From Oscillospiraceae bacterium (GTDB taxonomy: Bacteria; Bacillota; Clostridia; Oscillospirales; Ruminococcaceae): DNA of 10,195 nt. The stretch covers positions 1 to 10,195 of the forward strand of contig CAADWC010000203.1 in the NCBI GenBank assembly GCA_900752625.1, read 5' to 3'. The notes under the pieces are model-generated. The model had not been told where the DNA came from. It made no database searches and saw only the letters and a program-made list of their open reading frames with translations. A program made the translations under genes and the position numbers. Shown here in pieces: positions 1,552-6,781 of this stretch (position 1 is its first letter; every line of letters starts with the position of its first letter).

Positions 1552-1652
1552 ATATGTTTGGAAATATGTAAATGCATTTTAAGACAGGTTCTGAGCTGTT
1601 GAAGCGGCTGATAGCTTTGATTGATTTGGCAGCCGGAAAGTGCGGACAGCTT

Positions 1653-1661
1653 AAAGGGAGG
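1653..1661 (+). promoter_or_regulatory. Strong SD that sets the typA start
   Basis: AAAGGGAGG lies 6 bases before the ATG at 1668. An in-frame ATG at 1572 would add 32 residues, but it has no SD and lies only about 14 bases after the predicted transcript start. Translation from 1668 begins [20 protein letters not shown], the usual start of TypA proteins. Confidence 0.88.
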
Positions 1662-1667
1662 ATTTTT

Positions 1668-3485
1668 ATGATAAGAGAAGATTTGAGAAACGTTGCGATC
1701 ATAGCTCATGTTGACCACGGAAAAACTACTCTGGTTGACGAGATGCTCAAACAGAGCGGAACCTTCAGAGATAATCAGACGGTGGACGAAAGAGTTATGG
1801 ACTCTAATGACATTGAGAGGGAAAGAGGAATCACAATACTTGCCAAGAATACGTCCATTCATTATAAGGACGTTAAAATAAACGTTATAGATACTCCCGG
1901 CCACGCTGATTTCGGAGGTGAAGTTGAGCGTGTGCTTAAAATGGTGAACGGAGTGATTCTGCTTGTAGACGCCGCCGAAGGACCCATGCCTCAGACCAGA
2001 TTTGTCCTTCAGAAGGCTCTGGAGCTGGGTCATAAAATAATTGTGGTAATAAACAAGATAGACCGCCCTGACGCAAGACTTAACGAAGTAGGCGACGAGG
2101 TGCTGGAGCTGCTTATGGACCTTGACGCCAGCGACGAGCAGCTCGACAGTCCTATTCTTTACTGCTCCGGACGTGACGGAACGGCTTCTTATCACCCCAA
2201 TGAGCAGGGGGAGAATCTTATTCCTCTGCTGGACGAGATACTCAGCTATATTCCCACGCCGGAGGTTGACGCCGAAGGTCCGATGCAGTATCTGGTTTCG
2301 GCGATCGACTATAACGACTATGTGGGAAGGATCGCGATCGGAAGGATCGAGCGGGGCATTATGAGAGTCAATCAGGAGGTAAGTGTAGGCGACTTTCATC
2401 AGTCCAAAAAGGAATACAGAGGAAAAGTCGTTACAATGTATCAGATAGAGGGTCTTAGACGGGTCCCATGCGACGAGGCAAAAGCGGGCGATATCGTCTG
2501 CATAAGCGGTATCGAAAATATTACTATAGGCGATACAATATGCGAATTCGGAAAATTTGAGGCGCTTCCGTTTGTAAAGATTTCCGAGCCTACCGTTGAA
2601 ATGACTTTCTCGGTCAACGATTCTCCGTTCGCCGGAAGAGAAGGTAAATTCGTTACTTCCCGTCAGCTGAGAGACAGGCTTTTTAAGGAGCTTTTGAAGG
2701 ACGTTTCGCTGAGAGTTTCCGAAACGGATTCGACGGATAGCTTCAAGGTTGCCGGCAGGGGAGAGATGCACCTTTCAATACTTATCGAAAATATGCGCCG
2801 CGAGGGCTACGAGCTTTCGGTATCTACTCCTCACGTTTTATATAAGGAAATAGACGGAAAGCTTAACGAGCCTATTGAAAGACTTGTTATCGATGTTCCT
2901 GAAAACTGTGTGGGATCCGTAATGGAAAAGCTCGGTTCAAGGAAGGGAGAGCTTACACAGATGACTCCGGTAGGAAGCCGTATGAGGATCGAATTTCTTA
3001 TTCCCGCAAGAGGCCTGTTCGGCTATAGAAGCGAATTTCTGACCGACACAAAGGGCGAAGGAATAATGAGCTCGGTGTTCCACAGCTATCAGCCTTACAA
3101 GGGAGATATCCCTAGAAGAAGCACAGGCTCGCTTGTTGCCTTTGAAACCGGCGAAGCGGTAACTTACGGACTTTACAACGCTCAGGAAAGAGGAGAGCTG
3201 TTCATTACTGCCGGAACTCCGGTCTACGAGGGAATGATAGTAGGAGCGTCTCCCAAAGCCGAAGATCTGGTAGTAAACGTGTGCAAGAAAAAGCATCTTA
3301 CCAATACCAGAGCCAGCGGAAGCGACGATGCATTGAGGCTTATACCGCCAAGAAATCTCAGTCTCGAGGATTCGCTCGAATTTCTTGCGGACGATGAGCT
3401 GCTTGAAGTAACTCCGAAAAATATCCGTATCAGAAAGAGAACTCTCAGCAACACCCTCAGAGCGAAGGAAAGAGCGAAGATGTAA
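1668..3485 (+). CDS. typA: Ribosome-associated translational GTPase TypA/BipA
   Basis: The protein has 605 residues, close to the usual length of about 605-615. GTPase motifs are intact: P-loop AHVDHGKT (13-20), switch I with RGIT (52-55) inside a longer conserved stretch (41-60), DTPGH (74-78), NKID (128-131) and SGRDG (166-170). The EF-G-like beta-barrel and domain III/V regions follow, then the TypA-specific C-terminal domain, which contains [12 protein letters not shown] and ends with Arg/Lys-rich residues. The family binds the 70S ribosome at the EF-G site in a GTP-dependent way and assists ribosome assembly and growth under cold or other stress. The gene is flanked by its own promoter and terminator, so it is probably a single-gene unit. 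Length, motifs and start all agree, so the family call is secure. The exact physiological role in this organism is not readable from sequence. Confidence 0.97.
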
Positions 3486-3501
3486 TCAAGGATCATATAA
3501 G

Positions 3502-3546
3502 ACCGCCCGGCGTGATTTCAATGATCGCCGGGCGGTTTGTTTTTTG
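3502..3546 (+). terminator. Intrinsic terminator of typA
   Basis: An 11-bp perfect GC-rich stem (3502-3512 with 3526-3536; ACCGCCCGGCG and its complement) encloses a 13-base loop and is followed by a T-rich tract ending in TTTTTT. It lies 16 bases after the typA stop. The minus side has no T tract, so it works mainly rightward. Confidence 0.93.
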
Positions 3547-3637
3547 CCGAGCGGCATGGTCAGATAAAAAGGGACCCGAAAAAAATCGATAAGTTTCTGA
3601 CTGCGCCGGAATTCGGTTTTATGCTTGAGCTTTAAAC

Positions 3638-3669
3638 AAAAAAGCCGCTGCAATCAAGCACCAGCCTTT
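3638..3669 (-). terminator. Intrinsic terminator of the candidate small RNA
   Basis: On the minus strand GCTGGTGC (3665-3658) pairs with GCAGCGGC (3651-3644) around the loop TTGATT, with one G-G mismatch and one G-U pair. The stem is extended by AAAG pairing into the T run. TTTTTT follows directly (3643-3638). The stem and T tract are both in the correct order only for leftward transcription. Confidence 0.72.
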
Positions 3670-3780
3670 GATAAGATCGCAGCCGATAAAGACATCTGCG
3701 ACCGCCTGCAAAGATACGGAAAATGTTTGTAAGCCGTACATTTATATAACGCCGAACGGGATGCGTTGTCTATCGACAAT
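3638..3780 (-). ncRNA. Candidate stand-alone small RNA of about 140 nt, unassigned
   Basis: On the minus strand a near-consensus promoter (3812-3784) is followed, after about 110 bases of structure-prone sequence, by a hairpin with six Ts. This gives a complete small transcription unit from about 3780 to 3638. Predicted elements in order: TTGTC/GACAA around GATA (3779-3766); AACGC/GCGTT (3767-3763 with 3752-3748) around a loop with TCCC; either TACGG/CCGTA (3738-3734 with 3719-3715) or the competing AAATGT/ACATTT (3743-3738 with 3726-3721); an 8-bp hairpin GGTCGCAG/CTGCGATC (3703-3696 with 3682-3675); and the terminator. The 5' and 3' ends do not pair as in 6S RNA, and no SRP or tmRNA hallmark is seen. 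No gene follows on this strand inside the gap, so a cis leader is unlikely. A trans-acting regulator is the simplest reading, but this is inference. A 40-codon ORF inside lacks an SD. Confidence 0.6.
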
Positions 3781-3783
3781 AGC

Positions 3784-3812
3784 ATTATATCATATAACCA
3801 CGCCTTTGTCAG
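3784..3812 (-). promoter_or_regulatory. Promoter of the candidate small RNA
   Basis: On the minus strand CTGACA (3812-3807) and a perfect TATAAT (3789-3784) are separated by exactly 17 bases. TGA precedes the -10 box, giving an extended -10. The start would be at about 3780-3777. It diverges from the secA promoter, with 43 bases between the two -35 boxes. Confidence 0.78.
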
Positions 3813-3855
3813 CTTTTTAGCGGCAGAAATTTTCGGTCAAATGCGCTTAAACCGA

Positions 3856-3884
3856 TTGACAAACCGCCTATTATTTGCTATAAT
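3856..3884 (+). promoter_or_regulatory. secA promoter, full consensus
   Basis: TTGACA (3856-3861) and TATAAT (3879-3884) both match the consensus fully with 17-base spacing, and TGC precedes the -10 box. The start would be near 3891. This is the strongest promoter in the window and fits constant high expression of secA, or control after initiation through the long leader. Confidence 0.9.
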
Positions 3885-3890
3885 ATAAAA

Positions 3891-4048
3891 TGTATTTTTG
3901 TATCCGGTTAAGGGCAGGGCAAATCGGCTTTGCAGGTGTGCAGTTCGCTTGCCCTCAGCGTAAGGTTACTTACTGACATAATATATTTGGGAACGGATTT
4001 CATATATATTTTTGCAGGACTTTAATTTTAAAAGGTGGAATGGAAGAA
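3891..4048 (+). promoter_or_regulatory. Structured 5' leader of secA
   Basis: About 158 bases lie between the predicted transcript start and the secA ATG. AGGGCAA (3916-3922) pairs with TTGCCCT (3949-3955) around a 26-base region that itself contains a TGCA/TGCA mini-hairpin (3931-3942). GTAAG (3960-3964) pairs with CTTAC (3969-3973) around GTTA. The remainder to the SD is AT-rich and probably unstructured. I recognise no known riboswitch, SecM-like arrest peptide or T-box. AAAGGTGG (4031-4038) is the SD. Confidence 0.5.
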
Positions 4049-6781
4049 ATGGGTTTAATTGAAGCAATATTCGGAAATTACTCTAAAAAAGAGCTTAAAA
4101 GAATAGAGCCTATTAAAAATAAGGTTCTTGAGCTTGAAGAAAAGTATCAGCCTATGTCCGATCATGAGCTGAGGGAGCAGACTCAGATCATGAAAGACAA
4201 GATCGCAGACGGACTGAGTACGCTTGACGACGTTTTGCCGGACGCTCTCGCGGTATGCCGTGAGGCAGCTTACCGTGTACTTGGCAAAAAGCCGTTTCCT
4301 GTTCAGATCGTCGGCGCTATCATTCTTCATCAGGGCAGAATCGCCGAAATGAAAACAGGTGAAGGTAAGACTCTTGTAGCCTGTCTTGCAGCTTACGCAA
4401 ATTCTCTTAGCGGCCACGGCGTTCACGTTGTTACGGTCAATGACTATCTGGCTAAGTTCCAGTCAGAGGAAATGGGAAAGGTTTTCAGGTTTCTTGGACA
4501 GTCTATCGGCGTAGTGCTTTCCGGAATGGACAAGGACGCAAAGCGTGCGGCTTACAATGCGGATATTACATACGGAACCAACAACGAGTTCGGATTCGAC
4601 TATCTCCGCGACAACATGGTGATTTACAAGAAGGACAAGGTTCAGAGAGAGCATGCCTTTGCTATCGTGGACGAGGTGGACTCGATCCTTATCGACGAAG
4701 CGAGAACTCCGCTTATTATATCCGGGCAGGGCGACAAGTCTACCGAGCTTTATACTCTTGCCGACCGTTTTGCCAAGACGCTCAAGCCTGTAACGGTCGT
4801 TGAAATGGACGACAAGGCGGATAACGATGCACTCGACGGCGATTATATTATCGACGAAAAGGCAAGAACCGCTACTCTAACAAAGTCGGGCGTTAAAAAA
4901 GCTGAAAAGGCGTTCAATGTTATAAATCTTATGGACGCGGATAATATGACTCTGCTGCACCATATAAATCAGGCTATCAAGGCTAACGGTACTATGCGAA
5001 AGGATATTGACTACGTTGTCAAGGACGGAGAGGTTCTTATCGTAGACGAATTTACGGGACGTATCATGATAGGACGCCGCTTCAACGACGGGCTGCACCA
5101 GGCTATCGAGGCGAAAGAGGGCGTAAAGGTAATGAGAGAGTCAAAAACCATTGCCACGATTACCTATCAGAATTATTTCCGTCTTTATTCCAAGCTTTCC
5201 GGTATGACAGGTACCGCTATTACCGAAGAGGACGAGTTCAGAGAGATATACAAGCTGGATGTTATCGAGGTTCCTACAAACAAGCCTGTTATCAGAATAG
5301 ATCATCCCGACGTTGTTTATAAAACCGAAAAGGGCAAATTCAACGCTGTGATCGAGCAGATCCTTGAATGCAATAAGAAGGGTCAGCCGGTGCTTGTAGG
5401 TACGGTTTCTATTGAAAAATCGGAATATCTGTCAAGACTGCTGAAAAACAAGGGAATAAAGCATGAAGTCCTCAATGCGAAATATCATGACAAGGAAGCT
5501 AAGATAGTAGCTCAGGCGGGTAAGTACGGTGCTGTTACCATTGCTACCAACATGGCGGGAAGAGGAACGGATATCCTGCTTGGAGGAAACGCTGAATATC
5601 TTGCTACCGAGCAGCTTTATAAGCTCGATTATCCGGAAGAGGTGGTTGTTGAAGCGACAGGCTTCGCAGAAACCGAGGACGAGCAGGTGCTTGAAGCAAG
5701 AGCAAAGTATAAGGAGCTTTACAGCAAATATTCCGCTGAGGTTGCCGAAAAAGCTGAAAAGGTAAAGGAAGCCGGAGGACTGTTCATTATCGGTACCGAA
5801 AGGCACGAGTCAAGACGTATCGACAACCAGCTGAGAGGACGTTCGGGACGTCAGGGCGACCCGGGAGAAAGCCTGTTCTTCCTGTCGCTTGAGGACGATC
5901 TTATGAGATTGTTCGGCGGTGACAGAATAAATTCCATGATGGAGGCTCTCAAAGTAGACGAGAACACGCCTATTCAGTCAAAAATGCTTGCCAGCGTAAT
6001 CGAGTCGTCCCAGAAGAAGATAGAGGGCAGAAACTTTAACATCAGAAAGAACGTTCTTAATTATGACGACGTAATGAACACTCAGCGTGAGATCATTTAC
6101 GGTCAGCGTCAGAAGGTGCTTGACGGCGAGGATATTCACGAGTATATCATGGGAATGATAAAGGAATATATAGAGTCTACCGTAAATATGTATCTGCTGG
6201 ACGACGAGGTTCACGACAATTGGAACCTTGAGGGATTAAGAGATCATCTTATGGGTCTGTTCACCGTTGACAGCGATTTCAGATATGACGCAAAACAGCT
6301 TGATGAGATAACCAAAAAGGACATTTCCGAAATGCTCAACGACCGTGCGGATAAGATATACGCAAAGCGTGAGGAGGATCTTGGCAAAGAGCTGCTGAGA
6401 GAGATCGAGAGAGTTGTTCTGCTCAAGGTAGTGGACACTAAGTGGATGGCTCATATCGACGATATGGAAGAGCTCAAGCGCGGTATCGGTCTGCGTTCTT
6501 ACGGTCAGAAGAATCCTGTTGTTGAGTACCGTATGGAAGGCTTTGATATGTTTGACGCTATGATCGATGCGATCCGTGAGGATACCGTAAGAATGCTGTT
6601 TACCATTCAGGTGAGAAAAGCATCTCCCGCTCCGAAAAGAGAGCAGGTCCTCAACGAGGGTCCTCAGCATTTCAATATCCAGAGAAAATCAACTAAGGTC
6701 GGTCCCAACGACCCGTGCCCCTGCGGAAGCGGCAAGAAATACAAGAAATGCTGCGGAGCAGGACAGAATACAAACGAATAA
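4049..6781 (+). CDS. secA: Protein translocase ATPase SecA
   Basis: The protein has 910 residues. It is the ATP-driven motor that pushes unfolded preproteins through SecYEG at the membrane. Motifs: Walker A TGEGKT (103-108), VNDYLA (130-135), [16 protein letters not shown] (175-190), DEVDS (208-212, Walker B), NMAGRGTDI (501-509) and [10 protein letters not shown] (595-604) of the second nucleotide-binding fold, then the helical scaffold and wing regions. The tail is zinc-binding, CPCG with CC (C890, C892, C901, C902), and binds SecB or membrane lipid in other species. A Lys/Glu-rich insertion of about 60 residues follows GGN in the second nucleotide-binding fold; this stretch varies in length in the family. 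An in-frame ATG at 4040 is rejected because it lies one base after the SD AAAGGTGG; the ATG at 4049 is 10 bases from it and gives the usual MGLIEAIFG-type start. Transcribed alone from a consensus promoter. Confidence 0.98.

Follow-up and report, generated by a model that had tools for sequence, protein, structure and literature searches.

A predicted leftward transcription unit between typA and secA

The gap between typA and secA in this Oscillospiraceae genome raises the question whether its minus strand carries a small RNA gene of its own, as a preliminary description had claimed. Within the window, i.e. the whole 10,195-nt stretch of DNA analysed here, typA (1572-3485, plus strand) is followed by a 554-nt gap and then by secA (4040-6781, plus strand), and the other genes around these two lie on the plus strand too. 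The following features of the gap are relevant:

3784..3812, minus strand: promoter, with the -35 box CTGACA at 3812-3807, a 17-nt spacer and the -10 box TATAAT at 3789-3784
3638..3777, minus strand: predicted transcript of ~140 nt, with a start at ~3777 deduced from the -10 box and its end at the T-run
3638..3669, minus strand: predicted intrinsic terminator, with the hairpin 3669-3640 (AAAGGCTG.TGC / GCA.CGGCTTTT) leading into TTTTTT at 3643-3638
3647..3703, minus strand: mutually exclusive stems, formed either by 3703-3696 with 3682-3675 or by 3683-3675 with 3655-3647
3619..3741, minus strand: 40-codon open reading frame (ORF), which runs through the terminator and is unsupported as a gene
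3502..3545, plus strand: typA terminator, an 11-bp inverted repeat with a T-run
3856..3884, plus strand: secA promoter, TTGACA-17-TATAAT, 12/12 consensus matches, kept in relatives

Inspection of the minus strand verified the promoter at 3812..3784 as it had been described, including its extended -10 element (TGaTATAAT, in which a single base separates TG from the -10 box). It matches the consensus at 11 of 12 positions and forms a back-to-back pair with the promoter of secA, which the preliminary description had left unmentioned. The hairpin with six Ts is likewise present, ~115 nt downstream of the promoter. This site escaped a simple scan for terminators but was picked up by folding: 3680..3636 folds with -15.1 kcal/mol (z -2.3; 4 of 200 shuffles equal or better), and the alternative 9-bp stem 3683-3675 with 3655-3647 scores -16.7. 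The leftward unit ends at 3638, and the typA terminator is situated beyond this point. Short ORFs aside, no minus-strand gene follows the promoter inside the gap, again in agreement with the preliminary description. A second minus-strand promoter-like site with 11/12 matches is located near the start of the window, at 142-114.

On balance, these signals are probably best read as a short lineage-specific sigma-A transcription unit with its own terminator. That is, a sigma-A promoter, placed back to back with that of secA, would start an untranslated RNA of ~140 nt, which would end at its own intrinsic terminator short of typA. The unit sits in quickly turning-over gap DNA between two housekeeping genes.

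Structure of the predicted RNA and comparison with known RNA classes

The ~110 bases between promoter and terminator had been described as rich in short perfect inverted repeats. However, the body of the RNA (3777..3686) is less stably folded than the average shuffle (z +0.42), and 131 of 200 shuffles do as well, so the claimed structural richness is absent. Including the terminator, the 148-nt sequence reaches z -1.25, with 22 of 200 shuffles as good.

Searching the whole window against Rfam at the gathering score reached no family. At permissive limits, the segment 3480-4045 gave seven weak matches at chance level; none of them was 6S, SRP, tmRNA or RNase P RNA, which bears out the earlier failure to assign the candidate to any of these, and no riboswitch family was among them. 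The match with the lowest E-value was BcKCsr2 (RF02883; 3638-3745, minus strand; 18.3 bits, E 0.082). Its score is to be compared with a gathering score of 40, many pairs are broken and the family is from Burkholderia, wherefore we take it as a chance match.

The candidate resembles 6S RNA (RF00013) in its similar size range and as a stand-alone gene, but differs in that it has no permissive Rfam match to 6S and no long bulged hairpin in its fold. Intergenic trans-acting sRNAs with their own promoter and intrinsic terminator are a known class in bacteria. The candidate shares with them its size, a sigma-A-type promoter, an intrinsic terminator, the intergenic position and the lack of a supported ORF. 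In contrast to them, it is a candidate defined by its sequence signals, and neither conservation nor excess structure was seen.

Conservation of the locus

A search of 396 family genomes with 3300-4300 revealed adjacency of typA and secA in the near relatives G236 and G302, and among the matches listed none covers 3502-3848. Within the 16 genus genomes, adjacency was seen in these two only; typA and secA matches lay on different contigs in ten, and four had a secA match alone. As these are draft assemblies, adjacency in the other 14 is not strictly excluded. The best 80 typA loci among 592 relatives showed no secA match in flanks of up to 5 kb.

Conservation in close relatives, which the preliminary description had beforehand made a touchstone of its claim, was not found: the unit is absent from the typA-secA gaps of both G302 and G236. 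The best minus-strand promoters in the G236 and G302 gaps have 8 and 9 of 12 matches, and no minus-strand T-run of five occurs there. The distance from the typA stop to the secA -35 box is 370 nt in the window, 206 nt in G236 and 116 nt in G302, and in G236 repeat-rich filler takes the place of the unit. This G236 gap (locus L147) contains copies of a AGGCTAGA-type repeat in both orientations, which are perhaps mobile or slippage-prone. Absence from G302 and G236 is compatible with a lineage-specific sRNA.

A BLAST-type search with the region's DNA in 150 relatives of G001 (E up to 1) gave matches in 133 of them; those listed span at most 51 nt with a best E of 0.0037, and we read them as background. 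At E up to 0.01, two of the 16 genus genomes matched the region, over ~22 and 30 nt. The 80 typA loci gave no BLAST match to the gap, no homologue of the region was detected in phages or plasmids, and an exact 22-mer search in viral_contigs found none. A single-sequence covariance model produced nine matches in seven of the 16 genus genomes (E up to 10); when run on the window together with the typA-secA loci of G302 and G236, it matched the window alone. The best genus match (G470, E 6e-4) falls on a pair of terminator-like hairpins that separate two convergent genes, and no minus-strand promoter is listed in the vicinity; the second- and third-best rest on terminator hairpins; and a further match (G087, E 0.3) falls on the 3' end of a gene for an M18-type aminopeptidase, a presumptive label based on the protein sequence. 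The four covariance matches examined in detail elsewhere in the genus are terminators and one gene end. There is no convincing homologue in the genomes, phages, plasmids and Rfam families searched, and at the locus itself G302 and G236 lack a counterpart of the unit.

Alternative explanations

Promoter- and terminator-like strings might have come together by chance and never be transcribed, for which the missing conservation of the locus would speak, as would an overall excess of promoter-like sites in the window (24 versus 16.8 expected, sd 3.8). Shuffled sequences argue the other way. Promoters with at least 11/12 matches arose 0.015 times per dinucleotide shuffle of the gap (n=3000) and, with an extended -10, 0.0003 times; for shuffles of the whole window (n=400), the values were 0.19 and 0.0075. 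Among 1500 shuffled stretches of 230 nt, a fraction of 0.0013 had a terminator at least as stable as -16.7 kcal/mol. None of the 400 whole-window shuffles contained such a promoter with an equally good terminator 30-260 nt downstream. Moreover, with 11/12 matches and an extended -10 the promoter comes close in strength to the conserved one of secA. We consequently regard chance strings as a very unlikely explanation. The earlier statement that chance assembly is improbable thus holds against shuffled DNA, but the arrangement is not rare in real genomes: in 803,512 bases around typA from 80 relatives, a terminator of -12 kcal/mol or better lay at most 260 nt behind 19 of 182 promoters with at least 11/12 matches, an extended -10 not being demanded, and one of -16.7 kcal/mol or better behind nine of the 182. 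Promoter-terminator units are accordingly routine in these genomes. Some of these pairs precede or overlap longer ORFs, and the counts are not independent, since the 80 typA loci are related. The transcript could also be the mRNA for a protein of 40 residues, as the frame 3741..3619 begins ~36 nt past the predicted transcript start. However, 123 of 1000 shuffles contain an ORF of this length, no ribosome-binding sequence is seen in the 21 nt upstream of the ATG, the ORF has neither a Pfam match nor a homologue, and the terminator lies inside it, all of which renders a small protein extremely improbable. We assign just as little credit to an attenuator or riboswitch leader that has lost its gene and whose mutually exclusive stems form a switch. 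The segment 3682-3675 can indeed pair upstream or downstream, but a hairpin still precedes the T-run in both folds, which therefore do not imply an on/off switch and offer no antiterminated state; besides, no gene lies downstream and the seven permissive Rfam matches include no riboswitch family.

Since divergent genes often lie beside secA in the family, we also asked whether the unit is a remnant, i.e. a promoter and terminator left behind by the loss or shortening of a protein gene that ran divergently from secA, with a transcript that has no function. A minus-strand promoter with at least 11/12 matches is present in seven of 38 other distinct secA upstream regions, and in all seven the 1.1-1.5 kb upstream contain a long open frame on the minus strand (230 to 487 codons from stop to stop); the look at open frames covered 10 secA loci, these seven among them. 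In addition, 32 nt of the unit (3737-3706) look like the end of the coding sequence in M18-type aminopeptidase genes of relatives, and a 51-nt profile of this end matched the window with an nhmmer E of 5.4e-4, a value equalled by none of 500 shuffles. Yet the lead was selected from the 16-genome search, in which the starting match, that of G087, had an E of 0.3 for one genome. A 240-nt profile of the M18-type genes had no match in the window, nor had its upstream part alone, and the adjoining upstream piece behaved like shuffled sequence (152, 183 and 156 of 300 as good). When the whole region was aligned with the M18-type genes of 13 relatives, four beat all 300 shuffles in both scorings, three more in one scoring only and six in neither. 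The genes of the nearest relatives were unremarkable under strict scoring (78 of 300 shuffles as good for G302, 13 of 300 for G236). Two of the three genes that stood out in one scoring do not support the site: the best G236 alignment fell elsewhere in the gene, and a gene fragment without its 3' end (L204) still outdid all 300 shuffles in the loose scoring. Finally, no divergent gene exists at the locus in the syntenic G302 and G236. Given the way in which the match was found, we hold an origin from a decayed gene to be unproven, and consider a functionless relic of this kind unlikely.

Possible function of the unit

Returning to the lineage-specific transcription unit, the preliminary description of a complete sRNA gene survives in part: a short leftward unit with promoter and terminator is there, but excess structure, homologues and conservation were not found. 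As G302 and G236 lack the unit, it looks like an ordinary lineage-specific candidate sRNA. A young sRNA and a side product of divergent transcription that the cell tolerates are equally plausible readings of these signals. If functional, its likeliest role would, purely by inference, be base-pairing in trans with other mRNAs, as is usual for unconserved intergenic sRNAs. A more specific proposal, namely a recently born, lineage-unique sRNA that is co-regulated with secA through the back-to-back promoters and tunes mRNAs for protein export or other mRNAs by base-pairing, appears doubtful and rather improbable to us. Antisense pairing was assessed for eight start and leader regions of the window, and between 5 and 128 of 200 shuffled sRNAs paired equally well. 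The lowest value, 5 of 200, belongs to the region around an internal Met of typA and is not significant for eight tests, the duplex measure, taken over the whole length, being a crude one. None of the eight regions is thus a conspicuous antisense partner.

The titles of the literature on Ruminococcus sRNAs pointed to nothing specific, from which we do not claim absence from print. If transcribed, the unit would exemplify how fast small transcripts turn over in Ruminococcus-like bacteria within gaps flanked by housekeeping genes. A further caution is that a promoter and a terminator can look perfect together and still not mark a conserved RNA gene.

The secA start-site region and the typA start

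Comparison of secA upstream regions brought to light a motif at the predicted secA start site, TATAAT-N6-TGTRTNNNTRT (TATACT allowed), which includes the -10 box and extends directly beyond it (3879-3901, plus strand). It occurs upstream of secA in 36 of the 39 distinct regions compared from the window and relatives, the exceptions being L146, L130 and L086, and in none of 188 other promoters with at least 11/12 matches in the typA loci. The secA promoter spacer and the remainder of the leader show no conservation across relatives. A strict form of the motif has 12 matches in 10 of the 16 genus genomes, and the position of 10 of these matches places them immediately ahead of secA; it has no match in 147 order genomes, G302 included. 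Because the secA copy of G302 departs from the strict form, the latter result reflects rarity of the string and not absence of the motif. At the class level, 114 of 118 genomes have a secA match; 30 loci were compared, and the loose motif occurs in two of the 30, one of them G302. Members differ by nonsynonymous changes (TAT to TGT), which makes a leader peptide unlikely. Some members read ATATAAAA-TGTAT-TTTTATAT, an inverted repeat or near-palindrome over the predicted start site, and this arrangement suggests that the motif is an operator, possibly specific for secA. Further into the secA leader (3891-4039, plus strand), the window and G236 share an extra segment at ~3917-3956 that G302 is without, and the 3' part (ATATATTTGGGAAC..ATTTCATATATATTTTTGCA in the window) is common to the window, G236 and G302 with small changes.

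At the other side of the gap, the matches of relatives to TypA begin at residue 24 or later in 73 of 80 cases, many of them at residue 33, and earlier in the other seven, one of which starts at residue 2. The late starts in the 73 relatives suggest that translation of typA may truly begin at an internal ATG (1668) and not at 1572, which would leave 1572-1667 (plus strand) outside the coding region.
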